A stretch of DNA of 64,000 bases from Erythrobacter sp. (GTDB lineage: Bacteria; Pseudomonadota; Alphaproteobacteria; Sphingomonadales; Sphingomonadaceae), in NCBI RefSeq assembly GCF_030066995.1, contig NZ_JASJAP010000006.1, positions 62,001-126,000 on the forward strand, given 5' to 3'. The translations under genes and the position numbers were made by a program. Numbering within the stretch: position 1 is the first letter of the stretch; each line of letters opens with the position of its first letter. The notes beneath the pieces are model-generated. The model saw only the letters and a list, made by a program, of their open reading frames with translations. It ran no database searches and was not told the DNA's origin. Below, one piece after another: positions 10,099-25,833 of the stretch.

Positions 10099-12483
10099 TT
10101 AGGCGGCGATCGAGGTGCTTGTCACTTCGTCAGCAAAGCTAAGTCCGGGGCGGTACCGCGCGTCGACACGGCCGTCCTTGAGCGTGAACAGATGCAGCCA
10201 GCCGTTATCGAACAGCTCACGCATGCCGGGGTGGCGTTCCAGCACATCAAGGATCGCTTCGCGCGGTGCCTCGATCATCACCGACAGACGCAGCGGTTCG
10301 TGGGCGAGTTCCTCTCCATCGTGCACACCTTGCCACGGCAGGCCCGGACGCAGTCGTCCGCTGTTGCCTTCGATAACGCCAATGCCGCCCACAACGTTGT
10401 GGATCAGCTTGTTGCCACCGCCAAAGATGTCGGGCGCGACCGAAGAGCCATAATATTGAAGCGAAATCCAGCTCGCCACGACGACCGGAGCGGTCAGGAC
10501 TAGCTCGAGAACGCTGAAGTCCTCATCGCTTTGCCAATCGTAGGAATTGAGGAAGGCGCGGCCGCCCAAATCCTTGCCCGCGGTCGCCGCGCGCGGGGCG
10601 GCTATGAAGGCGCCGCAGCCCGCCAAACCCCACTCCGGCCGTGTTTCGGCCCAGTTTCTTGCACGCGCGTGGAGGTTCTGCCATTTGGCACCCGGCAGGC
10701 GCGGAGCGCGCTCGGCGCGAGCGATCCAAGCCGCCTCTGAAAGCCAGCCGCGCACGAGGCCAAGATCGTGCGGAACATCCGTCACATCCTTGTCGTAGAG
10801 CGTCACCGCGTCCGTCGTCGTATCGTGCAGCCCGGCGATGAAAACCGTATCCTCGGGCACGTGCAGCCCGCGCTCGGCCAGGCCCGTACGGGTCTCGGGA
10901 TCGTTGAGCATGCCTGCCAGCACCCGTGTCGACACATCGCCCGCGTAGCCACCGCAAGCGCCGCAGTGATAGGCGCTTTCATGCGGGTTGTTGGTCACAT
11001 TGCCGCCGTGCCCAAGCAGCAGAACCACCTTTGCGAAATTGGTCGTCAGACCCATCGCGCCGAGAACGGTGGCTGCGGTGTCGACTTTCATCTTGGCGGA
11101 AAGACCGCCGACCACTTCGGGCATGGGCTCGGGCTTCGTCGGACCCTTGGCGAGACCCAACGCATCCTTCACCAGCTTGACCGCGTAAAGCGGCCCCATC
11201 GATTCGACAAAGGCAAAGGACGAGACCGCCGCCTGCTTGAACCGACCAAAGGCGCGCGCCGTGCGAGCCTTGATGCGGGTGCTTTCATCGACCTTCGGAT
11301 CGCCCTCGCTGGTTGTTTCAAGACCCGGATTCAGCAGGACAGGGAGCCGATTCTGGATCAGGTCCGAACCGTGCGGGCGGTGCGCCAGAGGCATGCCGAA
11401 GAAACCCGCAAATCCGATCGTCTCGACCCCGCTGTCGACGCTTTCGAGGGCGCGACGGAAGACTTCCGAGCGCACATCGATGCAGAAAGCGGCTTGAACG
11501 TGAGGACGCCCGGACACCTTGTCGGAACCATCAAGAGCGGCAATCAGGCGCCGCTGGTGTGCGCGGTCGGCGGAGTCCTGTAGGATCGCGAGCGTCACCT
11601 GATCCTGTGTGGCTTCGACCGGCGCAGCGTGGCCCGCCAGCGCGTCTGTCCACTCAGACTTCACTTCAGGAAACGCCTCCAGCAATGCCTCCTCCCAGAT
11701 CAGGCGTATGGCGAGCAAATCGGCGAGCGTGCGGTCGACATCCTCCTTTAGTTCCGCCTGCCACAGCATCCAGCGCGCGTGCTGAGCCCAGCCACCAAGG
11801 CTCATATAGAGGCGGTGGAACGCGGTCTCGGCTGCATCCGCTTGGATCCCAAGCTTGTCGGCGGCAAAAAGGATCGCGCGCTCAGTCGTGTCCGGCGCCG
11901 CGGCGACATGCGCGCAGAACCCGCCAAGGCCCGCAATTTCAGGGGTCAGATCGTGGCTCGCCCAGGCGCGCCAGGCGGCGAACGCCTCGGCACCGGGCGT
12001 GGGTGACCACAGAGCCTGACCGCGATCAAAGTGGCCCGATGCCCATTGCCCAAAGGTTTTTTCGATCACCGAGGGCCAGTCGGTGCCGCTTGTGCGCGCA
12101 GCGAGATCGGCGATGGTCGGCAGAGCGGGAGCGGCCGCAACATCCCCCAACGAAGAAGCCGCCAGTTTGAGCGCCGCGACACTCGAATGCTTGAGCGAAG
12201 AGGTGTTCGCCTCCAGCGCCGCCTCAAGATCTTCGTCGAGAATGAACCCCTCGCGAATGGCCTTGGCATAGGCTGAGCCCGTCTGCGTGATCCGCGTGCC
12301 CGCGACGCGCGACAGCCGCGCCGATGCGGTCGCGAGATCCTCACTCGTTTGCCCCAGGAAAGGGTTGACCGCGACCGTCGCATCAAGCGGGAATGCGGGC
12401 GGGATCGCACGCGCGGCGGCCTCGGCGGCGGTAAGCACTTCGGAAAGCCGAGCGGGGGTAATCTGCGAGGGATTGAGGAACAT
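10099..12483 (-). CDS. dabA: Inorganic carbon transporter subunit DabA (DUF2309)
   Basis: DabA is the carbonic-anhydrase-like cytoplasmic partner of DabB. Together they are known from Halothiobacillus and other bacteria to accumulate bicarbonate in an energy-coupled way. Four residues match the described zinc/active-site set: Cys334 and Asp336 in FCIDVRSE, His492 in LLGHGG and Cys507 in AYHCGACGG. The His-Cys spacing of 15 equals that of the characterised enzyme as I recall it. The ATG at 12481-12483 has a well-placed GGAG; an ATG at 12499-12501, just 4 bases past the dabB stop, is an alternative giving 6 more residues. The longer open frame running into dabB is an artefact. With the start used here the protein has 794 residues, a normal family length. 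Confidence 0.92.
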   Translation of the reverse strand: MFLNPSQITPARLSEVLTAAEAAARAIPPAFPLDATVAVNPFLGQTSEDLATASARLSRVAGTRITQTGSAYAKAIREGFILDEDLEAALEANTSSLKHSSVAALKLAASSLGDVAAAPALPTIADLAARTSGTDWPSVIEKTFGQWASGHFDRGQALWSPTPGAEAFAAWRAWASHDLTPEIAGLGGFCAHVAAAPDTTERAILFAADKLGIQADAAETAFHRLYMSLGGWAQHARWMLWQAELKEDVDRTLADLLAIRLIWEEALLEAFPEVKSEWTDALAGHAAPVEATQDQVTLAILQDSADRAHQRRLIAALDGSDKVSGRPHVQAAFCIDVRSEVFRRALESVDSGVETIGFAGFFGMPLAHRPHGSDLIQNRLPVLLNPGLETTSEGDPKVDESTRIKARTARAFGRFKQAAVSSFAFVESMGPLYAVKLVKDALGLAKGPTKPEPMPEVVGGLSAKMKVDTAATVLGAMGLTTNFAKVVLLLGHGGNVTNNPHESAYHCGACGGYAGDVSTRVLAGMLNDPETRTGLAERGLHVPEDTVFIAGLHDTTTDAVTLYDKDVTDVPHDLGLVRGWLSEAAWIARAERAPRLPGAKWQNLHARARNWAETRPEWGLAGCGAFIAAPRAATAGKDLGGRAFLNSYDWQSDEDFSVLELVLTAPVVVASWISLQYYGSSVAPDIFGGGNKLIHNVVGGIGVIEGNSGRLRPGLPWQGVHDGEELAHEPLRLSVMIEAPREAILDVLERHPGMRELFDNGWLHLFTLKDGRVDARYRPGLSFADEVTSTSIAA

Positions 12484-12505
12484 CGTTGTATCTCCGGCCA
12501 TCAGC

Positions 12506-14077
12506 TCATTGGGGTTTGCTCTTGGTCGCCGCGAAGCCGCCAATGGCGCGGTCGAGCAGAGCATTGAGATAGAGGCCGTTGGCCAGATGCACGCGCAGCC
12601 CTGCAGTCGAGGGGTGGTGCGCCCAAAGCGGGAAGAGCGCCTGCGCAAAGGCAACGAGGCCGAACGACACTACCGCCAAAACGATCAGAGCCCATTCCAG
12701 CGGGCCGGGCGTCGGCGCGGCGGGAAGGATCGGTCCCCAAACCGCCTGTGCAAGCACCTGGAAGGTGAAATAGGCGACCGCCGCGATGATCGACGAACCG
12801 ACAAGCCGCTGCGTCAGCTCGCGCGGGGCAAGGTCAGCCAGGCCCTGCGCGACCATGTAGGCAACACCGAAGATCAGGATCGCACCCAGAGCCAAGGCCT
12901 GCGGACTCTTTGGCCCAAAGGCGAAGATGAAAAGGCCTGCAATCAACGCGTAGAGCAGCATGGCGAGACCGAACGAATTCAGCACCGCTTTCACGCTAGG
13001 CGCGGCGACTGGTCCCGGGCGGCGCACTTTGGCAACGTCCTCGATCGCTCCGCCAGAGGAAAGGAAAGCGTGCGCCTTGTAAAGCGAGTGCGCGACGATG
13101 TGCAGCAGAGCGAGCGTCCACAGACCAAGGCCACACTGGAGCAGCATGAAGCCCATTTGCGAAACGGTGGACCAGGCTAGCGCGGTCTTGACGGCACTCT
13201 GGGTCAGCATGACGGCCGCGCCGAACAGCGCGGTAAAGCCGCCAATCATCACAAGCGCGGCCATCGCGCCCGAGCTTTGCTGAACCAGTCCGGCGTTGGC
13301 GATCAACAGAACGCCTCCCGAATTGATGATACCCGCGTGAAGGAGGGCGGAAACAGGCGTGGGCGCTTCCATCACTTCGGTGAGCCAGCCGTGCAACGGG
13401 AAGGCGGCGGTTTTGAGCGCCGCAGCGACGACAAGGAATACAACAGCGGCGTTGCCAACAAGGCCAAGACCCTGCGCCCAAGCCGCATCCGCCAGCGCAG
13501 ACAGTTCCAGCGTTCCAAACGCGGCGAACAGCATCGCCGTTGCCAGGATCAAAAACGCATCCCCCGCGTGCCACACGATCGCAAACTTCGTGGCAGCGCG
13601 CTGAGCCTCCGGGCGATCGGGATAAAACAGCAGAAGCCGCTTCAAGGTGAGCCCCACCGCCAGCGTCGCTATCACAAGGGTCGCAAGGCTTCCGGCCTGC
13701 GCAAAGACAAGCACCGAGGCGAGCGTTGTCAGCATCAAGGCGTGAAAGGCGCCCTCGCGGCTTTCGCCATCGAGATAAGTGCGGCTGTAGCGCATCACGA
13801 TCCAGCCGATAAAGCCCACCAGCAGCGCCATGGTTGCGCTGACCAGATCGGCGCGCAGGGCAATCAGAACGGGGCCTTCAAACGCGGCAACGCCCACGGC
13901 CCTGGCGGCCACGACCTGCACCAGACCGCCCGTTGTCAGAGCAAGCGAGAAAAGCGCCGCGAGCTCGGCAAGACGCGGTGTCAGGCCCGGTCGACGGCCC
14001 GGTCGCGACGCGGCAAACGCGGCCACGAGCAGCAGGACGATAGGCGCAAAGAACGACAAGGACGGCGCTGTAAGCAT
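12506..14077 (-). CDS. dabB: Proton-translocating subunit DabB (NuoL/ND5-like) of the DAB inorganic-carbon system
   Basis: This 523-residue polytopic membrane protein of the complex I antiporter-like family has about 14 hydrophobic helices. It includes the conserved LHGWLTEVMEAPTPVSALLH region and Lys/His residues typical of proton-conducting subunits. Immediately followed by dabA, it should use the proton gradient to drive DabA-dependent CO2 hydration, giving net bicarbonate uptake. No other complex I genes are present, which argues against a Nuo or Mrp role. CGGAG lies upstream of the ATG. It is divergent from a LysR regulator, which probably controls it. Confidence 0.9.
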   Translation of the reverse strand: MLTAPSLSFFAPIVLLLVAAFAASRPGRRPGLTPRLAELAALFSLALTTGGLVQVVAARAVGVAAFEGPVLIALRADLVSATMALLVGFIGWIVMRYSRTYLDGESREGAFHALMLTTLASVLVFAQAGSLATLVIATLAVGLTLKRLLLFYPDRPEAQRAATKFAIVWHAGDAFLILATAMLFAAFGTLELSALADAAWAQGLGLVGNAAVVFLVVAAALKTAAFPLHGWLTEVMEAPTPVSALLHAGIINSGGVLLIANAGLVQQSSGAMAALVMIGGFTALFGAAVMLTQSAVKTALAWSTVSQMGFMLLQCGLGLWTLALLHIVAHSLYKAHAFLSSGGAIEDVAKVRRPGPVAAPSVKAVLNSFGLAMLLYALIAGLFIFAFGPKSPQALALGAILIFGVAYMVAQGLADLAPRELTQRLVGSSIIAAVAYFTFQVLAQAVWGPILPAAPTPGPLEWALIVLAVVSFGLVAFAQALFPLWAHHPSTAGLRVHLANGLYLNALLDRAIGGFAATKSKPQ

Positions 14078-14188
14078 AGAGTGAGGCTCCGAAGGGGATC
14101 GAGCTGGATTTGGTCAAAGGCGTGTAGCGGCAAGCTTGCATTAAAAAAAATTCAATATTTCTCGCGAAACGTTCGCTATGATAGAACA
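14078..14188. promoter_or_regulatory. Divergent promoter region between dabB and the LysR gene
   Basis: The 111-base gap contains a markedly AT-rich stretch (about 14140-14160) in an otherwise GC-rich region. A perfect inverted repeat, GCGAA-ACG-TTCGC, sits at 14164-14176, ending 12 bases before the LysR ATG. This placement suits autoregulation and divergent control of dabBA by the LysR protein. The assignment is inference; no clear -35/-10 pair was identified. Confidence 0.5.
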
Positions 14189-15079
14189 ATGGCTGTTCTA
14201 AACCTGCACCACCTCCGCCTTTTTCGCGCCGTTGCGCGCGAGGGCACGCTCACCGGCGCGGCGCGCGCGCTCAACCTTTCTCAAAGCGCCGTCTCCACCC
14301 AGATCAAGGCGCTGGAAGCCGCCCTCGGTCACGATCTGTTCGAACGGCGCGGACGCAGCCTGGAGATCACCGAAGCCGGCCGCATCGCGCTCGACCACGC
14401 CGACGACATCTTTCGTACCGCCGATCACCTAACCGCCACGCTCTCCAGCGCCGAAGGGCAGCGCCGGGTCTTGCGGATCGGCGCGCTTGCGACGCTTTCG
14501 CGCAACTTCCAGATGCGGTTTCTGGAGCCTATTCTGGGCCGCGACGATGTTGAGGTGGTGCTTCGCTCAGGGTCTCAGGACAGCCTTCTGCGCGCGCTTG
14601 AGGGGCTCAGCCTTGATGCTGTGCTCACCAACCTCAGCCCCGCACGCGACGCGGGCAGCCCGTATCTGGTGACCCGAATAGACGAGCAACCGGTCAGTCT
14701 GGTTGGCTCGCCCGAACGGGCGCAGAGCTTGCGCAGCGGTGCCTCGATTGCGGAAGTCATCCGCGCGCACCCGCTCATCCTCCCAACCCCGGAAACATCG
14801 CTAAGGGCCGGTTTTGATGCGTTGATCGAGAGGCTCGCCCTTGATCGTCAGGGGATTGTCACACGCATCGCAGCGGAAGCGGATGACATGGCGATGCTGC
14901 GCCTTTTGGCCCGCGCGGATGTCGGAGTGGCAGTCATCCCGCCGATTGTCGTGCGCGACGAACTGGAGGCGGGCACCCTCGTGGAGATGCACCGACTGGA
15001 GGACTTGAGCGAGATATTCTGGGCGGTGACGATCCGCCGCCGCTTCCCCAATCCGCTGCTAACCGAGGTGCTTAACTAG
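14189..15079 (+). CDS. LysR-family transcriptional regulator, NhaR-like
   Basis: This 296-residue regulator has an N-terminal winged helix-turn-helix (about residues 3-62; LNLSQSAVSTQIKALE) and a LysR substrate-binding domain (about 90-290). The segment GRSLEITEAGRIALDHADDIF-like resembles NhaR more than CbbR. LysR genes of this type are found next to dabAB in other bacteria, so the likely target is the divergent dabBA operon, responding to low inorganic carbon or to ionic or pH stress. The ATG at 14189 begins the conserved domain (MAVLNLHHLRLF); the upstream extension of this frame runs antisense through dabB and is not coding. Confidence 0.9.
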   Translation: MAVLNLHHLRLFRAVAREGTLTGAARALNLSQSAVSTQIKALEAALGHDLFERRGRSLEITEAGRIALDHADDIFRTADHLTATLSSAEGQRRVLRIGALATLSRNFQMRFLEPILGRDDVEVVLRSGSQDSLLRALEGLSLDAVLTNLSPARDAGSPYLVTRIDEQPVSLVGSPERAQSLRSGASIAEVIRAHPLILPTPETSLRAGFDALIERLALDRQGIVTRIAAEADDMAMLRLLARADVGVAVIPPIVVRDELEAGTLVEMHRLEDLSEIFWAVTIRRRFPNPLLTEVLN

Positions 15080-15097: not shown

Positions 15098-15718
15098 TCA
15101 GCCCCCGATCGACGCGATCGCCTCAGACAAGCTTACCACATCGCCGTATTTTGCGTTCATGTCGAACAGGTTGGCGCGGTGCGGGTCCTCCTGACGATCA
15201 CCCACCGCCTCTTCGATGATAATCGGGATGAACCCGTGGCTGCAGCAATCGACACAGGTCGCGCGGACACAGCCGCTTGTGGTCAATCCGGTGATGAGCA
15301 GGCTGTCGTGCCCCGCCGCGGTCAGCGTTGAGGCCAGCGACGTTCCGAAAAAGGCGCTGGGATACTGCTTGGAAAGGACAAGCTCGTCCTCGCCCGGCTC
15401 CAGACCCCGCGCCCATTCGCCATACCGATGCCCCTTCGCAAAACCCGCCAGCGGCGCGACTTTCTGGGCAAAACGTCCGCCGTCCCAAAGCGAGGGGTGG
15501 TACACGACTTGGGTGTAGATGACCGGCACACTCGCTCTCCTCGCCGCCTCACGCAAAATGAGCGCAGCAGCGAGCGCGTCGTCAACATCGGCGTAAAGCG
15601 GGCTCTCCGGCTCAAAATATGCGGCGACAAAGTCGATCAGGATCAGCGCCGGTCTGGCGCCGAACCCGATCCGGCCTTCATACACACCCGAATAGCTCGC
15701 TTGAAGATCATCGCTCAT
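15098..15718 (-). CDS. Isochorismatase-family cysteine hydrolase (N-carbamoylsarcosine amidase-like)
   Basis: This is a 206-residue cytoplasmic amidase of the isochorismatase fold. The catalytic triad is visible as Asp29 (LILIDF), Lys117 (LSKQYPSAF) and Cys150 (TTSGCVRATC). A cis-peptide-containing TTSGC motif is typical of amidohydrolases such as N-carbamoylsarcosine amidase, ureidoacrylate amidase and maleamate amidase, rather than of true isochorismatase. It lies 26 bases downstream of the TonB receptor gene on the same strand, so the two are probably co-transcribed. A hydantoinase pair nearby makes a carbamoyl or amide substrate plausible. The ATG at 15716-15718 is preferred over an upstream start that adds ten unconserved residues. 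Confidence 0.88.
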   Translation of the reverse strand: MSDDLQASYSGVYEGRIGFGARPALILIDFVAAYFEPESPLYADVDDALAAALILREAARRASVPVIYTQVVYHPSLWDGGRFAQKVAPLAGFAKGHRYGEWARGLEPGEDELVLSKQYPSAFFGTSLASTLTAAGHDSLLITGLTTSGCVRATCVDCCSHGFIPIIIEEAVGDRQEDPHRANLFDMNAKYGDVVSLSEAIASIGG

Positions 15719-15744
15719 GACGACGCCTTTAGCGCACGATGGCC

Positions 15745-18270
15745 TCAAAAGTTATAGGCGACTTCCACTCCAAAGCGCCGGAGACCTCCGGGCGAAATGA
15801 ACGAACCGCCAAACTCGATGGCGGGGATGACCTCATTCACATATTCCTCATTGGTGAGGTTCTCGGCAAAGGCAATGATTGTGATGCTATCGTCGATCTC
15901 GACACCGACGCGGACATCCAGGACACCGAAGGCCTCGCGCTCGGTGACCGTGTAGTCCGCATCGCCCACTTCAGCCGGAAGCGCCAGAGCCGAACCCGGC
16001 AGGAGCCCGCTGAAAAGCGTGGGAGAGGTGTCGTCCTGTACGGTGTGGAACCAGGTCGGCCCGGTGATGCGGTAGTCGGCGCGCGCGACGAAATCGAGAG
16101 TATCGGTCACCGGCACGTCGAACTGGCTTCCTACATTGATCGTGTAATCGGCAGTGTAAGGGGATTCGTTGCCCACTGTGACCGGGCGCGAGGCGTTCTC
16201 CTTGATCTCGCTTTCGGTGACATTGCCCGAGGCGAACAGCGTCCACCCATCGATCGGCTCCGCCACGATATTGAGTTCAGCCCCATAGATTTCGACCTCG
16301 TCGATGTTGGAGACCACCCGCAGCAATCCGAAATCGCCGACAAAGAACTCGAAGAACTGCATGTCATCGACATCGGTGTAGTATCCCGCCAGGTCGAAGG
16401 TTACCGCGCCGCCAAGCAAAGCGCCCTTGAGGCCCGCTTCGAAAGCCGACGACGTTTCTTTGCGGAACTGGTCTTCGATCAAGACGTCGGTGCCGATGAA
16501 CTGGTTGAAGCTTTGATCGACAATGGCGGCCGAGCCTTGGTTGTTGAAGCCGCCGGCTTTGAACCCAATGCCCCAGTTGGCGTAGAGATTGACCGTGTCT
16601 GTCAGCTCGTAGCGCAGCGAAATCTTGGGCTGAAACTGGCGGAATGTCTCCGACTGATCCGGGATCGGTCCGAAGGCAAGGCCAGGGTTGATCGGCGCGC
16701 CCGTAATCGGATCCGCCACATCCGGTACAAGGCTGGAAACGCTGCGATCCTCGATGTCGTAGCGGCCCGCCAGGCTGACGGTGAAGCGATCGCTCACATC
16801 CCAATCCACCGATGCAAACGCGGCGTAGACATCGGTCGAGAAGTCATCGTTGAACAGCTGCGATGTGGGGTTGAATGAACCCGGCGGATTGTAAAGCTCG
16901 CGGCTGACGCCCTCGCCCAGATCCGCGCCGATGCTGACCCCGACCTGGCGATCGATGTGAAGATAATACGCGCCCACCTGCCACTCGATTGGACCGCCTG
17001 TGTTCGACGCCAGGCGGACTTCCGCACTGAAATCGGTTTGATTGCGGATTTGCAGCTGGGTGCCATCGCAGGTCGTCGGGCTATAGGCGCCAAAGGTCGA
17101 TCCGGTGACCGGATCAAAGATGAAAGGCACGGGAGTCTCGCCGATAAAGGTCGGCGGATTGGTGGGAAAACCCGTCAGCTCAGCGGTCGAGGCGAAACAA
17201 GCGTTTGAGGCTGCGACCGAGTCCTCCGTCGCGCCTGGAAAGGTGAAGCGCGCAAAATCGGCCGACGTTCCGTCCGCGATCAAGAGCTGATCGACGTCGC
17301 TGTAGAGGCCCCAGGCGGTCAGCGTGACCGTTTCAAACTCGTGCCGAACCAGAGCGGAAAACTCGAAGGTCTCCTGCTCGTTGATCGGGCGAATGTTCGA
17401 ATAGTAATCGAATTGATGCTCGTTCACGTCTCCGAAGAAGGCGGGGTCTGTCCCCGCGAAGGCCGGCAGTTGAAACGTCGTGTTGAAGTTGATCGAGGCG
17501 GCCAGGAGGTCTTCGTAGCGCGCCTTGACGTCAAGCTCGGTGTTCGGCCCCAGCTCAGCAACAACCCGGCCATCGACCGACCAGATCTCCTGATCATCGA
17601 CCACATTGTCATCGAGGAAGCGATTGAAGAAGAAACCATCGGTACCGAAATAGTTGGCTGAAAGCACGAAACCCACACTCTCACTGAGCGGCGCGGCGAC
17701 ATATCCGTTGACCTGATAGGTGTTATCTTCAGCCGCCGAAGTGAGCAGACGGCCTTCAACCTCATCGCCCGGCTTTGCGGTTTGGATCACGATGGCGCCC
17801 GCCGCGGCGTTACGGCCGTAGAGCGCGCCCTGCGGCCCTTTCAGAACCTCGATCTGGCGCAGGGTGCCCTGCCGCTGGTTGAGCTGAGCCGTGTTGGTCT
17901 TCAAGATACCGTCGACCACCAGCGCGACCGAGCTCTCCGCGTCGCGCGCGCCATTGATCCCACGGATATTGATCTGGGTGTCGCCCGCTTCGGCTGTTCC
18001 CGTCACGATGGTGACGCCGGGGGTGAGCTGAACGAAGTCGTCCGCGCGCTCAATCCCGGCGGCGCGCAACGTATCCTGGGTGAACACGGTGATCGCGGCG
18101 GGCACTTCGGCGAGCGTTTCGGACTGCCGCCGTGCGGTCACTATGATTGTGTTGTCCTCACCCTCTTCGGTGGCGGCTTCGCCGTTGGTCTGGGCAGCGG
18201 CAGGCTGCGCGCTCGCCAGCGCCCCCAGAGCGACGCTGGAGACAAAAATGGATTTGGCGGATCGTGTCAT
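15745..18270 (-). CDS. TonB-dependent outer-membrane receptor
   Basis: This 841-residue outer-membrane receptor imports a specific ligand using TonB energy. It has a Sec signal peptide (about residues 1-23, ending AQPAAAQ) and a TonB-box-like NTIIVTARR. The plug domain (LTPGVTIVTG, INIRGINGARD) is followed by a long beta-barrel ending in the aromatic C-terminus VAYNF. The barrel resembles the large Sphingomonadales receptor families used for carbohydrates, aromatics or other organics rather than classic siderophore receptors, so the ligand is unknown. GAGGAA precedes the ATG at 18268-18270. The downstream amidase and the shared palindrome upstream tie it to the catabolic genes at 18.7-25.8 kb. 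Confidence 0.93.
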   Translation of the reverse strand: MTRSAKSIFVSSVALGALASAQPAAAQTNGEAATEEGEDNTIIVTARRQSETLAEVPAAITVFTQDTLRAAGIERADDFVQLTPGVTIVTGTAEAGDTQINIRGINGARDAESSVALVVDGILKTNTAQLNQRQGTLRQIEVLKGPQGALYGRNAAAGAIVIQTAKPGDEVEGRLLTSAAEDNTYQVNGYVAAPLSESVGFVLSANYFGTDGFFFNRFLDDNVVDDQEIWSVDGRVVAELGPNTELDVKARYEDLLAASINFNTTFQLPAFAGTDPAFFGDVNEHQFDYYSNIRPINEQETFEFSALVRHEFETVTLTAWGLYSDVDQLLIADGTSADFARFTFPGATEDSVAASNACFASTAELTGFPTNPPTFIGETPVPFIFDPVTGSTFGAYSPTTCDGTQLQIRNQTDFSAEVRLASNTGGPIEWQVGAYYLHIDRQVGVSIGADLGEGVSRELYNPPGSFNPTSQLFNDDFSTDVYAAFASVDWDVSDRFTVSLAGRYDIEDRSVSSLVPDVADPITGAPINPGLAFGPIPDQSETFRQFQPKISLRYELTDTVNLYANWGIGFKAGGFNNQGSAAIVDQSFNQFIGTDVLIEDQFRKETSSAFEAGLKGALLGGAVTFDLAGYYTDVDDMQFFEFFVGDFGLLRVVSNIDEVEIYGAELNIVAEPIDGWTLFASGNVTESEIKENASRPVTVGNESPYTADYTINVGSQFDVPVTDTLDFVARADYRITGPTWFHTVQDDTSPTLFSGLLPGSALALPAEVGDADYTVTEREAFGVLDVRVGVEIDDSITIIAFAENLTNEEYVNEVIPAIEFGGSFISPGGLRRFGVEVAYNF

Positions 18271-18692
18271 CAGGGATTCCTCAAAAGTCCATCCGACTGG
18301 CCCCCGCGTCTTACGCACGGCGTGTTTCCCACTCGGCGGGGATGGTGCGCCCTGGACCACCGATCCACGGCGCGCGGTTCTGAATCGAATGCGCCAGCCT
18401 CGCGGGTGTGGTCAGTCTCTCAAAGCGCGCGCTGGATCCCTGTCAGCCACGGCCCCTCGAGTGTTGACACAAGCCGGTCGCACTCACGTGGTGTCGTGCA
18501 CTTATTGTATACAATTTGCCCGCGTCAAGAAAAATTGATAGGCCGCACACAAGTGTAGGCGCGGGGACGTGAATTGAGGTTTTTGGGTCACGTTTTGAAC
18601 GCTTCGGAGACGCGCGCAGGGCCGGGTCAGGGGCGCTGTGTCGCTTTCTGGTGCGTTTCTGTACCCTTTGAGTGCCCTTCGGATTTGCCCGC
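18271..18692. other. Long divergent intergenic region (TonB receptor / GntR regulator)
   Basis: No gene is apparent in these 422 bases. They hold the palindrome ATTGTATACAAT at 18504-18515. Read toward the receptor gene, a TTGACG (-35-like, complement of 18523-18528) lies just before the palindrome, so the palindrome would fall in the spacer to any -10 element, giving a leader of about 230 bases. A TTGACA at 18464-18469 on the plus strand has no convincing -10. Confidence 0.55.
18504..18515. promoter_or_regulatory. Candidate GntR/FCD operator, copy 1
   Basis: ATTGTATACAAT is a perfect 12-bp palindrome. With the bases after it, the 14-base string TTGTATACAATTTG is repeated exactly at 20768-20781. 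Palindromes of the TTGTATACAA type are typical FadR/FCD-subfamily GntR operators, and such a regulator is encoded 178 bases away. Confidence 0.7.
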
Positions 18693-19370
18693 ATGAGCAC
18701 GGCGTCGGACACCGCCTATGAAAAGATCCGTCAGCATTTGCTCGAAGGAAGGGTTCGGCCCGGCGATCGCCTGACCGAAGAACAGCTTTCCGCAATTGCC
18801 GGTGTAAGCCGCACGCCGGTGCGCGAGGCGGTTTCCCGGCTGGAGCGCGAGCTGCTGCTGATGCGCACGCAATCCAATCGCATTGTCGTGCCCGATTGGG
18901 GCGAGGACGAGATCGATGAGTTGTTCACCCTGCGCCAGATGCTCGAAAGCCACGCCGCCGAGCGCGCCGCGACGAGGGTCAGCGCTCAGGACATCGACGA
19001 ACTTGCGCGGATCAATTCCGAACTGCACGAGGCGGTCGCGCTTGATCCTCCGGACGTGGCGCGCTTCCTCGATGCCAATCGCCTGTTTCACGAGGCGGTG
19101 ACCGAGGCGGCGCATTCGCCGCGCCTGGGGCGGATCCTGGCAACGCTGGTGGAGCAGCCCGTTGTCCTGCACACGGCGCGCGAATACTCGATTGAGGATC
19201 TGAGGCAATCCTCGCGCGATCACGACGAACTCATCGCCGCCTTTCGGGCGCGTGACCCGCACTGGGCGCGCGCGATCATGGGCAGCCATTTGCGCCGGGC
19301 GTTTCACGTCTTCGCCGACGCGATGGGCGAGCAGCGCTCAAGCGCGGAAGGAGCCTGCGCAGCAGAGTAA
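18693..19370 (+). CDS. GntR-family transcriptional regulator, FCD (FadR C-terminal) subfamily
   Basis: This is a 225-residue ligand-responsive regulator. The N-terminal winged helix (about residues 5-68) includes LTEEQLSAIAGVSRTPVREAVSRL. The all-helical FCD domain (about 75-210) carries the metal- or ligand-binding set Asp127, His133, His177 and His199. Such proteins usually repress catabolic operons and release on binding an organic acid. The ATG at 18693 begins the conserved domain; seven residues of an upstream extension are not needed. It sits between the receptor/amidase pair and the CoA-transferase/lyase genes, and both flanking promoter regions carry the same palindrome, so it is the likely local regulator. 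Confidence 0.92.
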   Translation: MSTASDTAYEKIRQHLLEGRVRPGDRLTEEQLSAIAGVSRTPVREAVSRLERELLLMRTQSNRIVVPDWGEDEIDELFTLRQMLESHAAERAATRVSAQDIDELARINSELHEAVALDPPDVARFLDANRLFHEAVTEAAHSPRLGRILATLVEQPVVLHTAREYSIEDLRQSSRDHDELIAAFRARDPHWARAIMGSHLRRAFHVFADAMGEQRSSAEGACAAE

Positions 19371-19391
19371 GCGCAGCGGAGTAGGCGCGGC

Positions 19392-20585
19392 TTAGATGAT
19401 GCCGCGCGCTTCAAGGTCGGCCATGGTCTGGCTGTCCATGCCCAGAAGCTCGCCATAGATCGCCTCGTTGTGCTCACCCAGGTCAGGGCCGACCCATTCG
19501 ACATGGCCCGGTGTTGCGGAGAGTTTGGGCGCCACGTTCTGCATCTTGAAGTTCTCATAACGCGGATGCTCGCGCTCGATGATCGCCTCACGCGCCGCGA
19601 AATGCGGGTCCTGGAGCATTTCGGGAGCGCGGTAGATATTGCCCGCCGGAACCCCGTGTTCCTCACACTTGGCAAGCACTTCAGCGCTCGTGTGCTGCTG
19701 GGTCCACGCACCGATCAGCTCATCAAGCTCGCCCTGGCGCTCCCCGCGCGCAACATGGCTGTTGTAGCGCGGATCATCGCCCAGCTCTGGCCTGCCCATC
19801 ATCGCCGACATGCGCTTCCACACGCTGTCCTGATTGCCCGCGACCAGCACGCTGCCATCCTTGGTCGGATAGACGTTGGACGGTGCGATCTTTGGCAGGA
19901 TCGATCCGGTCCGCTCGCGGATATGACCGGTGACGGTGTATTCCGGCACGGTCGATTCCATCATCGCCAGCACGGCTTCGTAGATGGCCGAATCGACGAC
20001 CTGGCCCTCGCCTGTCTTGTGGCGATGATTGAGCGCCATCAGGGCACCGAGGCACGCATAGGTCGCCGCAAGCGAGTCCCCAATCGAGAGGCCCGCGCGG
20101 CTTGGCGGGCGATCCGGTTCGCCGGAAATATAGCGCATGCCGCCCATCGCCTCGCCAATCCCGCCATAGCCCGCGCGGCTCGAATACGGACCGCTTTGAC
20201 CATAACCCGAAACCCGGATCATGATCAGCCCGGCGTTGATCGCGTGCAACTCTTCCCAGCCCAGATTCCAGCGCTCCAGCGTGCCGGGGCGAAAGTTCTC
20301 AAGCAGAAAGTCGGCCTTCTCAACCAGTTGCTTGACGATCGCCTGACCCTCTTTTTCGCGGAGGTTAAGCGTGATCGATTTCTTGTTGCGCGCCACGACC
20401 GAAAACCACAGCGGCACGCCCTGCCCCCAGTTTCGCATCGCATCGCCCACCTTTGGCGGCTCGATCTTGATCACCTCAGCGCCGTGATCGGCCATCAACT
20501 GACCGCAAAACGGCCCCGCGATGAGCTGCCCCATCTCGATCAGACGCAGTCCTGAAAGCGCGCCAGTTGCGCCATCTTGTCCCAT
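19392..20585 (-). CDS. Family III CoA-transferase (CaiB/BaiF)
   Basis: This 397-residue CoA-transferase moves CoA between carboxylic acids via an aspartyl-CoA intermediate. The catalytic Asp170 is seen in GLSIGDSLAATY, and the N-terminal GLRLIEMGQLIAGPF and GAEVIKIEPP blocks are typical. The family includes formyl-CoA, succinyl-CoA:citramalate and succinyl-CoA:glutarate/3-hydroxy-3-methylglutarate transferases. It is divergent from an HMG-CoA-lyase-like gene. A simple reading is that this enzyme activates the acid that the lyase then cleaves. It is convergent with the GntR gene, with 21 bases between them. The donor and acceptor are inferred, not shown. Confidence 0.93.
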   Translation of the reverse strand: MGQDGATGALSGLRLIEMGQLIAGPFCGQLMADHGAEVIKIEPPKVGDAMRNWGQGVPLWFSVVARNKKSITLNLREKEGQAIVKQLVEKADFLLENFRPGTLERWNLGWEELHAINAGLIMIRVSGYGQSGPYSSRAGYGGIGEAMGGMRYISGEPDRPPSRAGLSIGDSLAATYACLGALMALNHRHKTGEGQVVDSAIYEAVLAMMESTVPEYTVTGHIRERTGSILPKIAPSNVYPTKDGSVLVAGNQDSVWKRMSAMMGRPELGDDPRYNSHVARGERQGELDELIGAWTQQHTSAEVLAKCEEHGVPAGNIYRAPEMLQDPHFAAREAIIEREHPRYENFKMQNVAPKLSATPGHVEWVGPDLGEHNEAIYGELLGMDSQTMADLEARGII

Positions 20586-20767
20586 GCAATGCTCCCTTTT
20601 GCCCCCGCCTGGGAGCCCGATTTACCTGCGAATCACTCGCAGCTAGAGAAGGCACTGAAAGGCACCTAACCCGTGCAGAGCGTCTTCTCGACCGACACAG
20701 CGACCCGCTAACGTTGCAGCGGGCGCCCATGGCGACTGGACTGCGCCTATAGGCAGCAGATTTGCTT

Positions 20768-20781
20768 TTGTATACAATTTG
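20768..20781. promoter_or_regulatory. Candidate GntR/FCD operator, copy 2
   Basis: TTGTATACAATTTG contains the perfect 10-bp palindrome TTGTATACAA and is identical over 14 bases to the copy at 18505-18518. It lies in the 239-base divergent gap between the CoA-transferase and lyase genes, 57 bases before the lyase ATG. It falls between a TTTGCT and a TATGGG that could be weak -35 and -10 elements. Confidence 0.7.
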
Positions 20782-20824
20782 CGTATGGGATGCGGGTCTG
20801 GGGAGCAGGACAAGAGCCCGATTC

Positions 20825-21733
20825 ATGGTAGCGCAAAGCATCGAACTGGTTGAGGTGGGGCCGCGCGACGGGCTCCAGAACGAACCCGACATCGTCTCCA
20901 CCTCCGACAAGCTCGCGCTGGTTGAGCGGATGATCGAATACGGCGCGCGCCGCCTGGAGGTGGCGAGCTTCGTGCACCCTGAACGTGTGCCGCAAATGGC
21001 GGACGCCGAGGCGGTCATCGCTGGCCTGCCAGACCGCGAACACATCACCTATATCGGGCTTGCCCTCAACAAGCGCGGCGTGCTGCGCGGGCTCGCGACG
21101 CGCGAAGGGGGAAAGCGAGGCATCGACCAAATTGGCTGCGTGATCGTGGCGAGCGACACGTTCGGCCAGAAGAATCAGGGTCAGACCATTGCGCAAGGGA
21201 TCGCTCAGAACCGCGAGATGATCCGCCTCTGCAAAGCCGAGGGATTGTCCGCACAAATCACGATCTCCGCCGCTTTCGGCTGCCCCTTCGAAGGTGAGGT
21301 CAAACCCGAAACCGTTCTCTCCATCGCTGAAGATCTGGCCGCCGAAGGCCCGATTGAAATCGCGCTTGCCGATACGATTGGCGTCGGTGTCCCCGCACAA
21401 ATGACCGATCTGTTTGGCCAGCTTGGCGAGTTGCTGGCGGGCGAGATCCCGATGCGCTGCCATTTTCACAACACGCGCGGCACCGGCATAGCAAACGCCT
21501 GGGCCGCCTATCAGGCGGGCGTGGGGGTGTTCGACGCCTCGCTCGGCGGGCTTGGGGGCTGCCCCTTTGCACCCCGGGCCACCGGCAACATTGCAACCGA
21601 AGACCTCGTCTACCTGATGGACGCATCCAGGATCGAAAGCGGTGTGAACCTTGAAGAAGTTATCGCGACCAATCGCTGGTTCGCATCCATTCTCGATCGC
21701 GAATTGCCTTCGCTCGTAGCCCGCGCGGCGTGA
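20825..21733 (+). CDS. Hydroxymethylglutaryl-CoA lyase-like (HMGL family)
   Basis: This is a 302-residue TIM-barrel lyase that cleaves 3-hydroxy-3-methylglutaryl-CoA or a related 3-hydroxyacyl-CoA to acetyl-CoA plus a keto product. Key residues are Arg14-Asp15 in GPRDGLQNE, the metal-binding His213 and His215 in CHFHNTRG, and the catalytic Cys246 in GGLGGCPFAPRATGN. The family is also used for citramalyl-CoA-type substrates, so the exact acyl group is open. I use the ATG at 20825 because it begins the conserved sequence and lies outside the palindrome. Translation from an ATG-like start at 20762 would place the operator inside the gene. It leads the hyuA-hyuB genes. Confidence 0.92.
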   Translation: MVAQSIELVEVGPRDGLQNEPDIVSTSDKLALVERMIEYGARRLEVASFVHPERVPQMADAEAVIAGLPDREHITYIGLALNKRGVLRGLATREGGKRGIDQIGCVIVASDTFGQKNQGQTIAQGIAQNREMIRLCKAEGLSAQITISAAFGCPFEGEVKPETVLSIAEDLAAEGPIEIALADTIGVGVPAQMTDLFGQLGELLAGEIPMRCHFHNTRGTGIANAWAAYQAGVGVFDASLGGLGGCPFAPRATGNIATEDLVYLMDASRIESGVNLEEVIATNRWFASILDRELPSLVARAA

Positions 21734-21773
21734 GTTCGGGCGCAAACCTAAAGACCCATCTCAGGGAGAGCGC

Positions 21774-23822
21774 ATGACCTACAGATTGGGTGTCGATGTT
21801 GGCGGCACGTTTACCGACCTGCTCTTGTTCGATGAAAGCAACGGCGCTTTCTGGCGCCACAAGACGCCGTCCACCCCTCACGACAGTTCCGAGGGCATCC
21901 TCAACGGAGTGAAGGCGATCACCGCCGAAGCGGGAGTGTCGGCCAAGGACATTGCCTATTTCCTCCACGGGACCACGGTCGCGACCAACGCCGTGCTGGA
22001 AGGCAAGGGCGCGAAGGTCGGACTTATCGTGACCGAGGGGTATCGCGACATCATGCAGATAGCGCGCAGCTTTGTGCCCGGGGGCCTGGCTGCGTGGATC
22101 GTGTGGCCCAAGCCCCAGCCCCTCGCCGCGCTCCAAAACACGATCGATGTGCCCGAACGCATGGACGCTAATGGCAAGGAGGTACGGCGACTGGACGAGA
22201 ACGCGGTGCGCGCAGCGCTACGCAAGCTGAAAGGTCAGGGCATAGAGGCGCTGACCGTCAGCCTGATCAACGCCTATGTCAACGGCGCGCACGAAACGCG
22301 GATCGGCGAGATCGCCGCCGAGGAAATACCCGGCATCCCGGTGTCGCTCAGTCACGAAGTGCTGCCGGAAATGCAGGAATACGAACGCACACTTTCGACT
22401 GTTGCCAACGCGGCGGTGCGCCCCGTGGTGAGTAAGTACGTCTCGAACCTGCGCGATAAGCTTGAAGACGAAGGCCTCGAAGGCAAGCTTTCGCTGCTGC
22501 GATCGGATGGCGGCCTGATGAGCAGCCAGAAGGCCGAAGAGCACCCGGTCAACATCCTGATGTCGGGCCCCGCTGGCGGGGTGACGGGCGCGCTGTGGGT
22601 GGCAAAGAACGCCGGGCTCAAGAATATTCTCACGCTCGACGTGGGCGGCACCTCGACCGACGTTGCGCTGATCGAGGGGCTAGAGCCGCGCCGCCAGCGC
22701 ACCACCGAGGTCGGCCATCTTTCGGTGCGCGCGTCGGCGCTCGATGTGAAAACCGTGGGCGCGGGCGGCGGTTCGATCGCGCATGTGCCCGAGCTCACCG
22801 GCGCGCTGCGTGTCGGGCCGGAAAGCGCGGGCGCGGTACCCGGCCCGGTCGCGTATGGCAAAGGCGGCGAGCTGCCGACCGTAACGGATGCGAACGTGGT
22901 GCTGGGCTATCTGCCCGAAGACCTGCTGGGCGGCAGCTTCCAGCTTGATCGCGAAGGCGCCAAGAAAGCGGTGCAGATCATCGCCGACGCGCTCGGGGTC
23001 AGCCTGATGGAAGCGGCGCGCGGCATCATCGATATCGTCAACGAGAACATGTTCGGCGCGCTGCGCATGATCAGCGTACAGCAGGGCTACGACCCGCGCG
23101 AATTTGCGGTGATGGGCTTCGGCGGCGCGGGACCGCTGCACGTCAACGCAGTTGCCAAGCTGATGGGCAGCTGGCCCGCCGTCTCGCCTGTCTCGCCCGG
23201 AGTGCTGTGCGCGCTGGGCGACGCGACGACGCGCATGCGCACCGAAACCGCGCGGAGCTTTTCCAGGCTTGCCAGGGATACGAGCGTTGCCGATCTCGTC
23301 ACGGTCCTGCGCGAAATGGCCGAACAGACACGCGGCGAATTGCTCGCCGACGGGGTGGCCGATGCGGACATCACCGCCGAGTTCGAAGTCGACATTCGCT
23401 ACGCCGGCCAGGCTTTCGAAGTGCCGCTCACCATTGATGAGGCGGTGCTCGAAGCCGACGGGATCGAAGGCATCCTTGCGCGCTTCGACGAGGAGCACCG
23501 CCGCCTTTTCACCTTCAACATGGACACCCCGCACGAGATCGTGAACCTGCGCGCGGTGGCTCTTGGAAAAGCGCCCGCGCTGCCCGCCGCTGAGCTCCCC
23601 AAAGGCAATGGCGATCCGATCGGAGCCAAGATCCGCGACCACACGCTCTGGATGGACGGCGAGGAGCGCGCGGCGGTGATCTATGACAGGTCCAGGCTCA
23701 AGCAGGGCGATCGCATTCCAGGCCCCGCGATCGTGACCGAGATGGATTCCACCACCCTGATCGAAACCGGCTGCGTCGCGACCGTCGACGCTTCGGGAAA
23801 CATTCTGATCGAACTGCAGTGA
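21774..23822 (+). CDS. Hydantoinase/oxoprolinase subunit A (ATP-dependent)
   Basis: This 682-residue subunit is of the N-methylhydantoinase/5-oxoprolinase/acetone carboxylase superfamily. The N-terminal GVDVGGTFTD phosphate-binding motif belongs to its actin-like ATPase fold. Further blocks are [27 protein letters not shown] and GAGGGSIAHV. The family uses ATP to phosphorylate a lactam, hydantoin or ketone carbonyl before hydrolysis or carboxylation. It lies 40 bases after the lyase gene, with AGGGAGAG before the ATG, and is followed by its partner subunit. The small third subunit of acetone/acetophenone carboxylases is absent, which favours an amidohydrolase role. Confidence 0.92.
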   Translation: MTYRLGVDVGGTFTDLLLFDESNGAFWRHKTPSTPHDSSEGILNGVKAITAEAGVSAKDIAYFLHGTTVATNAVLEGKGAKVGLIVTEGYRDIMQIARSFVPGGLAAWIVWPKPQPLAALQNTIDVPERMDANGKEVRRLDENAVRAALRKLKGQGIEALTVSLINAYVNGAHETRIGEIAAEEIPGIPVSLSHEVLPEMQEYERTLSTVANAAVRPVVSKYVSNLRDKLEDEGLEGKLSLLRSDGGLMSSQKAEEHPVNILMSGPAGGVTGALWVAKNAGLKNILTLDVGGTSTDVALIEGLEPRRQRTTEVGHLSVRASALDVKTVGAGGGSIAHVPELTGALRVGPESAGAVPGPVAYGKGGELPTVTDANVVLGYLPEDLLGGSFQLDREGAKKAVQIIADALGVSLMEAARGIIDIVNENMFGALRMISVQQGYDPREFAVMGFGGAGPLHVNAVAKLMGSWPAVSPVSPGVLCALGDATTRMRTETARSFSRLARDTSVADLVTVLREMAEQTRGELLADGVADADITAEFEVDIRYAGQAFEVPLTIDEAVLEADGIEGILARFDEEHRRLFTFNMDTPHEIVNLRAVALGKAPALPAAELPKGNGDPIGAKIRDHTLWMDGEERAAVIYDRSRLKQGDRIPGPAIVTEMDSTTLIETGCVATVDASGNILIELQ

Positions 23823-23836
23823 ATTTGGATTTTCAT

Positions 23837-23923
23837 ACCGCTCCCCCGCGAAGGCGGGGGCCCAGAGCAACAAGTACCGGTGTCCGGAAAGCTCTGGATC
23901 CCCGCCTTCGCGGGGAAGCGGCA
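23837..23923. repeat. REP-like palindrome pair, copy 1 (between hyuA and hyuB)
   Basis: Two facing arms form an imperfect inverted repeat about 25 bases long, at roughly 23840-23868 and 23891-23920. Each arm is itself a small hairpin (CCCCGCGAAGGCGGGG in the first; its complement in the second). The layout matches the pair at 25857-25931, although the stem bases differ. The pair could stabilise or attenuate the hyuAB message. Confidence 0.8.
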
Positions 23924-23946
23924 AAATCCAGCTTGGAGACAAACTA

Positions 23947-25833
23947 ATGCCCGCGCAAATCATCGAAACCAACGCCACGCCCTTTGCGAAGATCGATATC
24001 GATCCGGTGACGCTCGATATCATCGAAAACGCCCTGCGCAACGCGCGCATCGAGATGGACGCAACGCTCGTGCGCACCGCCATGTCGCCTGGCATCCGCG
24101 AACAGGGCGACGCCTTCCCGATGATCGCCGACCCCTCCGGCAAGATGATCGTCGGCCAGTTCGGCAGCTTCATCGATGGCTTCCTCAAAGGCTTTGACGG
24201 CACGCTCGAAGACGGGGACATGATCTTCCTCTCCGATCCCTATTCGTGCGAGGGCGCGGTCAGCCATTCGAACGACTGGTTGGTGTTGCTGCCAGTGTTC
24301 AAGGACGCTCGCCTCATCGCCTACACCGCGATGTTCGGGCACCAGTCCGATATCGGCGGCAGCGTGCCAGGCTCGATGCCGATCAACGCGTCTTCGATCT
24401 TTGAAGAGGGCGTGCGCATCCCGCCGGTCAAGATCTGGAAGAGAGGCGAGTATAACGAGGATCTGATGCGCCTCGTCATGCACCAGACACGCAAACCCGA
24501 TTGGTGTCAGGCCGATCTCAACGCGATCATCGCCAGTTGCCGCGTCGCGGCCAAGCGCATCGTCGAAATGGCCGATCGGTTTGGCGACGATGTCTATGTC
24601 TCCGCGACGCAAGAGCTGCTCGCGCGCAACCACCGGGCTATGAAAGCGCTGATCGCGATGGCGGTCGCGGAAGAGCCGGTGAGCTTCACCGATTACATCT
24701 GCGATGATGGCAAGGGCTTTGGCCCCTACAAGATCACCTGCACCATGCACCGCGAAGGCGACAAGGTGATCCTCGATTTCGAAGGCACCGACCCGCAATC
24801 CGCCGCTTCGATCAACTTTTTCCTCAACGAAAACATGTTCAAGATGTTTTTCGGCATCTACATGATCATGGTCTTCGACCCGCAGATCCTGTTCAACGAC
24901 GGGTTCTACGATCTCATCGACGTGCGCATTCCCGAAGGTTCGCTGTTGAAGCCGCAATTCCCGGCGGCCCTGTCAGGGCGCACGCACGCGCTGGGACGGA
25001 TTTTCGATATTCTGGGAGGGCTTCTGGGTCAGAAGACCCCGGAATTCCTGAACGCGGCCGGATTCTCCTCCTCGCCCCACCTGTTCTATTCGGGCTGGGA
25101 CAACCGCTCCGGACACGAAGGCGAATGGTTCCAGCTTTTCCAGATCGGCTTTGGCGGTATCCCCGGACGGCCTCTGGGCGATGGCCCGGATGGCCACTCG
25201 CTGTGGCCGGGTTTTACCAACGTGCCCAACGAATTCCTTGAGCGCTATTTCCCGATGCGGATCGAGCGCTATTCGACCGAGCCCGACAGCGGCGGCGCTG
25301 GCCTGCATCGCGGCGGCAACGGCATCCACATGACCTACCGCTTCCTCGCCGATGGCAAGATCGCCATTCACGATGATCGCTGGTTCGTCCCGCCCTGGGG
25401 GGTCAATGGCGGCCTTCCGGGCGCGCGCGCCAAAAAACTGCTCGAACGCGCCGATGGCTCGACCACGGTGGTCGGCAACAAGGTGGAAGATGTCGAGATC
25501 AAGGCGGGCGACCGGCTGCACTTCATCACCTGGGGAGGCGGCGGCTGGGGCGACCCACTGGAGCGCGATCCCGAAACCGTCGGCCTCGAGATCCGGCAAG
25601 GTCTCGTCACCCCCGGCGGCGCGCGCGATTATGGCGTGGTGGCCGATGAGGACGGCGTGATCGACGCCGACGAAACCGAAGCGCTGCGCGCCGAGCTTCG
25701 CGCGAGCCGGGGCGAGCTGCCGCTATTCGACTACGGCCCGCCGATCGAGACGCTGCGCGAAACCTGCACGCATGAGACCGGCCTACCGGCTCCTAAAGCG
25801 CCGCAATGGGGTCCGAAAACGGCGGCGGCTTAA
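23947..25833 (+). CDS. Hydantoinase/oxoprolinase subunit B (ATP-dependent)
   Basis: This 628-residue partner of the preceding subunit has the family signatures DPVTLDIIENAL near the N-terminus, the DPYSCEGAVSHSNDW metal-region block, and the C-terminal glycine-rich FITWGGGGWGDP. In characterised relatives this subunit carries the hydrolytic or carboxylating site. Together A and B should open a lactam or hydantoin-type ring, or act on a related carbonyl substrate, with ATP. The gene is separated from hyuA by 124 bases containing a REP pair, longer than expected for a tight operon. A second pair follows its stop. Substrate unknown. Confidence 0.92.
   Translation: MPAQIIETNATPFAKIDIDPVTLDIIENALRNARIEMDATLVRTAMSPGIREQGDAFPMIADPSGKMIVGQFGSFIDGFLKGFDGTLEDGDMIFLSDPYSCEGAVSHSNDWLVLLPVFKDARLIAYTAMFGHQSDIGGSVPGSMPINASSIFEEGVRIPPVKIWKRGEYNEDLMRLVMHQTRKPDWCQADLNAIIASCRVAAKRIVEMADRFGDDVYVSATQELLARNHRAMKALIAMAVAEEPVSFTDYICDDGKGFGPYKITCTMHREGDKVILDFEGTDPQSAASINFFLNENMFKMFFGIYMIMVFDPQILFNDGFYDLIDVRIPEGSLLKPQFPAALSGRTHALGRIFDILGGLLGQKTPEFLNAAGFSSSPHLFYSGWDNRSGHEGEWFQLFQIGFGGIPGRPLGDGPDGHSLWPGFTNVPNEFLERYFPMRIERYSTEPDSGGAGLHRGGNGIHMTYRFLADGKIAIHDDRWFVPPWGVNGGLPGARAKKLLERADGSTTVVGNKVEDVEIKAGDRLHFITWGGGGWGDPLERDPETVGLEIRQGLVTPGGARDYGVVADEDGVIDADETEALRAELRASRGELPLFDYGPPIETLRETCTHETGLPAPKAPQWGPKTAAA

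Follow-up and report, generated by a model that had tools for sequence, protein, structure and literature searches.

A repeated palindrome as the predicted operator of a FadR/FCD-type GntR regulator at a hydantoinase-type gene cluster of Erythrobacter and related Sphingomonadales

Introduction

According to PMC4494728, operators of the FadR subfamily of GntR regulators follow an A/T-rich palindromic consensus with TKGT and ACMA boxes and 2 or 3 nucleotides (nt) between GT and AC. A 2-nt centre is found in some groups (MdcY, PrpR, UxuR, HypR, HpxS and GntR), and double sites that separately regulate their own operons are described for the subfamily. In this study we analyse a palindrome of this form, TTGTATACAA, which occurs twice in a 64,000-nt stretch of DNA from Erythrobacter sp. 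(contig NZ_JASJAP010000006.1, positions 62,001 to 126,000), referred to as the window. We predict the two copies to be operators of the FadR/FCD-type GntR regulator encoded between them. The locus resembles the FadR-subfamily regulons in combining a GntR helix-turn-helix (HTH) with an FCD domain, in the TKGT-N2-ACMA form of the site and in the placement of separate sites in divergent gaps near the operons to be controlled, but the target genes are others, and none of the orthologous groups of PMC4494728 is equated here with the window regulator.

Further described systems were compared with the locus. The best NCBIfam model for the window regulator is that of PhnR, a GntR protein of phosphonate utilisation (TIGR03338; cut-off 271.5 bits), with a score of 99.5 bits, and no phosphonate families were detected among the cluster proteins scanned; McbR of E. 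coli is the second-best solved relative. The binding sequence of the malonate regulator MdcY is reportedly close to ATTGTATACAAT, a report that our literature search did not return, and malonate decarboxylase genes were not present among the ten neighbouring proteins scanned. Among the open PMC papers listed by our searches, none connects the motif with such a gene cluster, and none of the open PMC papers containing the 10-mer deals with a GntR operator, as judged by titles and abstract starts.

Two identical sites in the window and in the genome

An earlier note on this DNA had described a 14-base site shared by two divergent intergenic regions. Exact matching places the 14-mer, TTGTATACAATTTG, at the two positions that the note had given, and the window contains no further exact one:

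18505 to 18518, no strand: operator A (predicted), the TTGTATACAA palindrome at 18505-18514 followed by TTTG, exact match
20768 to 20781, no strand: operator B (predicted), the TTGTATACAA palindrome at 20768-20777 followed by TTTG, exact match

The identity of A and B extends to 15 bases (TTGTATACAATTTGC), or to 18 of 19 when the upstream CTT is counted by eye. The surrounding genes form a cluster at 15098-25833:

15098 to 15724, minus strand: isochorismatase-fold amidase (PF00857), 3' of the receptor gene; best solved relative 26st, E 2.4e-49
15745 to 18273, minus strand: TonB-dependent receptor (PF07715, PF00593), adjoining operator A
18693 to 19370, plus strand: GntR-family regulator of FadR/FCD type, 225 amino acids (aa); PF00392 and PF07729 above gathering scores
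19392 to 20585, minus strand: class III (CaiB/BaiF) coenzyme A (CoA) transferase (PF02515)
20825 to 21733, plus strand: hydroxymethylglutaryl-CoA (HMG-CoA) lyase-like enzyme (PF00682; NF004283), first gene behind operator B
21774 to 23822, plus strand: HyuA, hydantoinase/oxoprolinase A (PF05378, PF01968, PF19278)
23947 to 25833, plus strand: HyuB, hydantoinase/oxoprolinase B (PF02538)

The GntR and CoA-transferase genes, which stand between the two sites, are convergent. Both sites lie in divergent gaps, as the note had it. Operator A is located within the 419 bases between the receptor and GntR genes; its palindrome is separated by 231 nt from the start codon of the receptor gene and by 178 nt from that of GntR. 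Operator B is located within the 239 bases between the CoA-transferase and lyase genes, where the palindrome is separated by 47 nt from the start codon of the lyase gene and by 182 nt from that of the CoA-transferase gene. The sequence TTGT-AT-ACAA at both places fits the FadR-subfamily consensus as given in PMC4494728, and the note's description of the core as a perfect palindrome of the FCD-type GntR kind is thereby borne out.

Many unrelated copies elsewhere in the genome had been named in the note as a finding that would speak against a shared operator; no exact ones exist. In the own genome (3,304,791 bases in nine contigs; the reversed pattern served as control) TTGTATACAA is found in two places only, A and B, and the reversed control nowhere. 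When up to three mismatches to the 14-mer are allowed in both orientations, 42 matches are obtained versus 21 for the reversed control. Only A and B are exact, no match has a single mismatch, three have two mismatches (one of these being site A on the other strand) and all remaining ones have three.

Conservation in orthologous loci

A regulator-based genome scan gave 52 loci, of which 42 were kept, from Erythrobacter, Altererythrobacter, Porphyrobacter, Parasphingorhabdus and other Sphingomonadales; site and gene counts were made with tblastn. Left out were ten remote loci (L095-L104; 24-35% identity) that carry no cluster gene at the cut-offs. The 42 loci hold 82 exact copies of the palindrome in 720,554 bases, where 0.16 are expected from base composition or 0.08 from a dinucleotide model, and the motif is thus there by more than chance. 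An exact copy lies 5' of the regulator gene in 40 of the 42 loci and 5' of lyase or hyuA in every one of them; in L076 the site precedes hyuA, with no lyase gene behind it by tblastn. The two inexact positions among the 84 are single-base variants, TTGTGTACAA (L056) and TTGCATACAA (L077), so that the loss of the palindrome in orthologous loci, another refuting outcome named in the note, is not what these loci display. Among more remote relatives some loci are without the palindrome. When all perfect 10-base palindromes are compared, 40 of the 42 loci contain TTGTATACAA twice, while the runner-up reaches at least two copies in six.

Since such counts start from the motif, the upstream regions were also aligned without reference to the sites. 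In the 300 nt 5' of the regulator gene, at least 42 of the 43 sequences agree at positions 18503-18514 (including the operator A palindrome), and a second block, CGTCAAG (18523-18529), is identical in at least 41 of 43 at each position and keeps a fixed spacing. The other positions conserved at 90% (18430-18463) correspond approximately to the start of a racemase-family gene in the relatives, and the window often deviates there. In the 130 nt 5' of the lyase gene, TTGTATACAA is the sole fully conserved block (42 sequences, that is 41 loci and the window).

Two layouts occur among the 42 loci. In the window-like layout the CoA-transferase gene is divergent from the lyase gene; in the Porphyrobacter-like layout lyase, hyuA, hyuB, CoA-transferase and amidase follow each other in series on the regulator strand. 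In both layouts the sites stay with the regulator and the lyase operon. The proposed members remain together despite the differing gene order, which supports the single local regulon put forward in the note, as far as comparison of sequences can.

One of the ten remote loci, on a Ktedonobacteria contig (L098), combines a remote GntR homologue (31%) with a single exact TTGTATACAA at 8067, whose first base lies 89 nt before the match (8156-8746).

Distribution of the motif in the family and co-occurrence with the regulator

In a family set of 199 genomes, own included, 64 exact copies were found: 46 at cluster genes, three 5' of a receptor gene elsewhere and 15 in other places. Forty-four of the 64 lie no more than 2.1 kb from a regulator or hyuA match. 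One copy on a contig fragment is located between lyase and CoA-transferase (L114), and another (L118) precedes a lyase-like gene (54% identity) by 447 nt and stands next to the same CGTCAAG block. The three copies at receptors elsewhere come from two species of genus g31 (L106 at 4480, L110 at 3250), with an exact copy 5' of a TonB receptor gene away from the regulator, and from G140 (L119 at 3065), where the receptor gene lies about 105 nt downstream. The g31 receptors are 90% identical to each other and 30% to the window receptor, and the G140 receptor is 63% identical to the latter; the regulator locus of G140 (L131) is itself without the motif. These three receptors look as though they had moved together with the operator.

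As for the 15 other copies, four are inside open frames of 142-927 aa (G023, G090, G178, G036), whose products look unrelated by reading of the translations alone. One copy (L111) has no cluster gene in a stretch of 7 kb, and around ten more (L117, L120-L128) the only cluster genes detected were a GntR homologue (L121, 33%) and a receptor (L123, 23-26%), both remote. Outside copies were considered as further regulon targets and set aside, 15 of the 64 having no demonstrated link to cluster genes. CTTGTATACAAATGAT is common to two species of genus g42 (L124 at 3047, L125 at 3032), where no cluster gene is near; a different FCD-type regulator that recognises this core may have its operator there.

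Co-occurrence was scored with the full regulator list, taking regulator matches within 10 kb of hyuA and exact copies within 5.5 kb; the genome scans scored limited candidates per genome, and the absence of a match is hence not proof of absence. Where hyuA has a regulator match within 10 kb, an exact copy is near in 29 of 35 cases. Of 18 other hyuA copies two have an exact copy, and in both genomes (G097, G173) the regulator gene lies on a different contig. None of the seven hyuA copies whose genomes gave no regulator match at E 1e-20, within the limited candidates scored, has an exact copy nearby.

The regulator protein

The window regulator matches PF00392 with 64.3 bits (cut-off 27) and PF07729 with 88.3 bits (cut-off 24.3), which makes it a FadR/FCD-type GntR protein. 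In an alignment of 72 sequences (the window, the 42 loci and 29 further loci) the HTH residues S39, R40, T41 and R44 are invariant, and the FCD histidines H133, H177 and H199 are likewise present in 72 of 72 homologues.

Promoter context

Two short elements next to the operators are relevant to the mode of control:

18523 to 18529, minus strand: CTTGACG, -35-like block of the putative receptor-operon promoter, 8 nt from the operator A palindrome
20747 to 20751, plus strand: CTATA, candidate -10 box for the lyase operon, with its first base 21 nt ahead of operator B

Read on the receptor strand, CTTGACG is followed after eight bases by TTGTATACAATA, and this arrangement is kept in 43 sequences but for single positions. 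The arrangement suggests that, with CTTGACG as the -35 element, the palindrome overlaps the -10 region and a bound protein would repress by occlusion. As the spacing does not clearly match a standard one, occlusion is a mechanism that we infer. In relatives with a racemase gene (L053, L089) operator A is a few tens of bases from the racemase start. The first base of operator B is found 24-74 nt before the lyase start across the relatives, with starts extrapolated from tblastn. CTATA has the same offset in the Erythrobacter-type group (nine sequences, with variation at one position) and in 17 of 17 Parasphingorhabdus-type sequences, and is not seen in the consensus of 16 Porphyrobacter-type sequences. 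A sigma-70 scan yielded two promoters in all versus 0.6 in shuffled sequences, and one match, scoring 9 of 12, overlaps site B with the operator's own TACAAT as second hexamer. If CTATA is the -10 box, operator B covers the transcription start; whichever of CTATA and TACAAT applies, operator B would overlap the promoter.

In the 17 Parasphingorhabdus-type loci (L075, L077-L092) an invariant CTATACAAAGC, in which the seven right-hand operator bases recur, stands 21 nt before operator B. Candidate readings for it are a -10 box, a secondary half-site, or both.

Enzymes of the cluster and extra genes of relatives

The best solved relative of the amidase (26st) is N-carbamoylsarcosine amidohydrolase, and HyuA is nearest to an N-methylhydantoinase entry and to 5-oxoprolinase. 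HyuA and HyuB do not qualify as the caprolactamase CapAB, with 547.8 and 225 bits, respectively, each against 1000. For the CoA-transferase the nearest NCBIfam model is succinate--glutarate CoA-transferase, below its cut-off, and the nearest solved structures are an unnamed CaiB/BaiF protein and formyl-CoA transferase. The lyase reaches 286.2 bits with NF004283 (hydroxymethylglutaryl-CoA lyase; cut-off 246), a match that does not imply the substrate.

In many relatives additional genes separate the receptor gene from operator A. By gene clustering, a greedy choice that missed some lyase and hyuA genes (e.g., in L065 and L068), a gene of the Asp/Glu/hydantoin racemase family (PF01177) is present there in 33 of 43 sequences and one or two SnoaL-like genes in 32 of 43; the window, L055 and L056 have neither. 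A racemase relocated elsewhere in the own genome was also considered, and gave no match in a search run without a positive control.

Neighbouring genes

On the amidase side of the cluster lies a further regulator gene:

14177 to 15076, plus strand: LysR regulator gene, neighbour of the amidase gene

Divergent from it, DabA (PF10070, 805 bits) and an overlapping proton-antiporter-type membrane gene occupy 10099-14077 (minus strand), a probable DAB inorganic-carbon accumulation pair. On the other side, 4 kb from the regulon, a second HyuA-HyuB is encoded at 29873-33472 (minus strand) as a fused chain of 1200 aa with A and B domains; no exact operator was found near this gene in the window.

Discussion

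Taken together, the comparisons make it very probable that A and B are operators of the FadR/FCD-type GntR regulator encoded between them. The link from regulator to site is suggested by their conservation in the same loci and by their co-occurrence across genomes. Under this proposal, in the absence of ligand a GntR dimer would sit on TTGTATACAA at both places. At A it would cover the promoter of the receptor gene, and with it the amidase gene, and would at the same time stand upstream of its own gene, a position from which autoregulation may be deduced. At B it would cover the start region of lyase-hyuA-hyuB and may also control the divergent CoA-transferase gene. Binding of a ligand, probably an acid or intermediate of the pathway, would release the dimer, so that uptake and catabolism come on together. 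The genes for receptor, amidase, regulator and ring-opening enzyme are thus probably switched together.

Several observations weigh against this proposal. The sigma-70 scan gave no promoter at site A, and a -10 hexamer placed within or behind the palindrome would not stand at a clearly usual distance from CTTGACG. In the protein, residue 129, four before the first FCD histidine, is Asn in every homologue with a letter there, at a place that we take to be that of the metal-binding Asp of the FCD Asp-His3 set. The motif is not over-abundant genome-wide: the reversed control totals about 136 (summed by hand) versus 64 for the motif in the 199 genomes, hence it is the location of the copies, not their number, that is remarkable. 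Six of the 35 loci with both regulator and hyuA have no exact copy nearby, four of which (L035, L037, L052, L129) carry variants with a GTATAC core. The remaining L130 and L131, with regulators 49 and 46% identical, are without GTATAC in the 8.6 and 9.5 kb examined, and in these stretches tblastn detects neither a lyase gene nor a close relative of the window receptor; both are real exceptions to the pairing of motif and regulator. Furthermore, close homologues of the regulator are present in 46 genomes (shortened list), 10 of which hold no exact copy anywhere, 14 genomes outside that shortened list have one copy each (one being the site of L118), and three genomes of genus g4 are without a site 5' of the regulator, keeping only the one at lyase/CoA-transferase.

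Another regulator, such as the LysR protein encoded next to the amidase gene or an unlinked factor, might bind the palindrome and leave GntR a mere neighbour, and L130 and L131, where a GntR homologue stands beside hyuAB without the motif core, agree with such a separation. Yet no LysR homologue is present in the 42 loci at E 1e-15 and 38% identity, while GntR, being the query, is present in all, and none of the seven hyuA copies whose genomes gave no GntR match has the site nearby. The motif moreover has the form known from FadR-subfamily GntR regulators (PMC4494728), and we regard this alternative as very unlikely. Still less probable is a shared promoter element, with TATACAAT as a -10 box used twice. 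TATACA/TACAAT does resemble a -10 box, and the predicted promoter at operator B uses TACAAT as its second hexamer, but a -10 box needs no left TTG arm, whereas the palindrome is intact over its ten bases at 82 of 84 positions, and a housekeeping box would recur throughout the genome instead of in just two places in 3.30 Mb.

A different question is whether GntR, bound at these sites, would activate transcription, or repress at one site and activate at the other. This is a variant of the binding proposal, not a competitor to it, and its probability does not subtract from that of binding. The 178 nt between operator A and the regulator's own gene leave room for it, as does the distance from site to start, which varies among genes and clades. 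Operator A, however, lies 8 nt downstream of the -35-like block on the receptor strand and close to the racemase start in L053 and L089, and operator B a short way before the lyase start; positions of this kind usually mean repression, which argues against activation and makes this variant unlikely.

The regulon probably serves the uptake and opening of a nitrogen-containing ring. A reasonable guess at the route is that uptake is followed by ATP-dependent opening of the ring by HyuAB, that the amidase takes off an amide or carbamoyl group, and that CoA transfer and C-C cleavage by the lyase come last. Pathways for hydantoin and N-methylhydantoin offer a close likeness, in their HyuA/HyuB pair, in an amidase nearest to N-carbamoylsarcosine amidohydrolase and in the PF01177 gene that heads the receptor operon in many relatives. 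To our knowledge those pathways need neither a CoA-transferase nor an HMG-CoA-lyase-like enzyme, whereas both belong to the predicted regulon here, and the racemase search in the own genome (without positive control) was negative. It is possible, though we would not call it probable, that the two operators frame a substrate-inducible pathway, so far undescribed, in Erythrobacteraceae and other Sphingomonadales. In it a hydantoin, cyclic imide or lactam would be imported by the TonB receptor and opened by HyuAB with ATP; after the amidase step the acid so formed would be activated by the CoA-transferase and split by the lyase to central metabolites, with a single GntR switch dedicated to the whole.

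In summary, the regulon is new, while its kind is well known, with counterparts in many other bacteria, and its mechanism ordinary. What was a guess from a single sequence has become a well-supported regulon with a defined operator. This gives a handle on the substrate, since a reporter placed behind either promoter would show the inducer, and it fixes which genes act together, including the receptor and amidase genes, which are otherwise hard to annotate.

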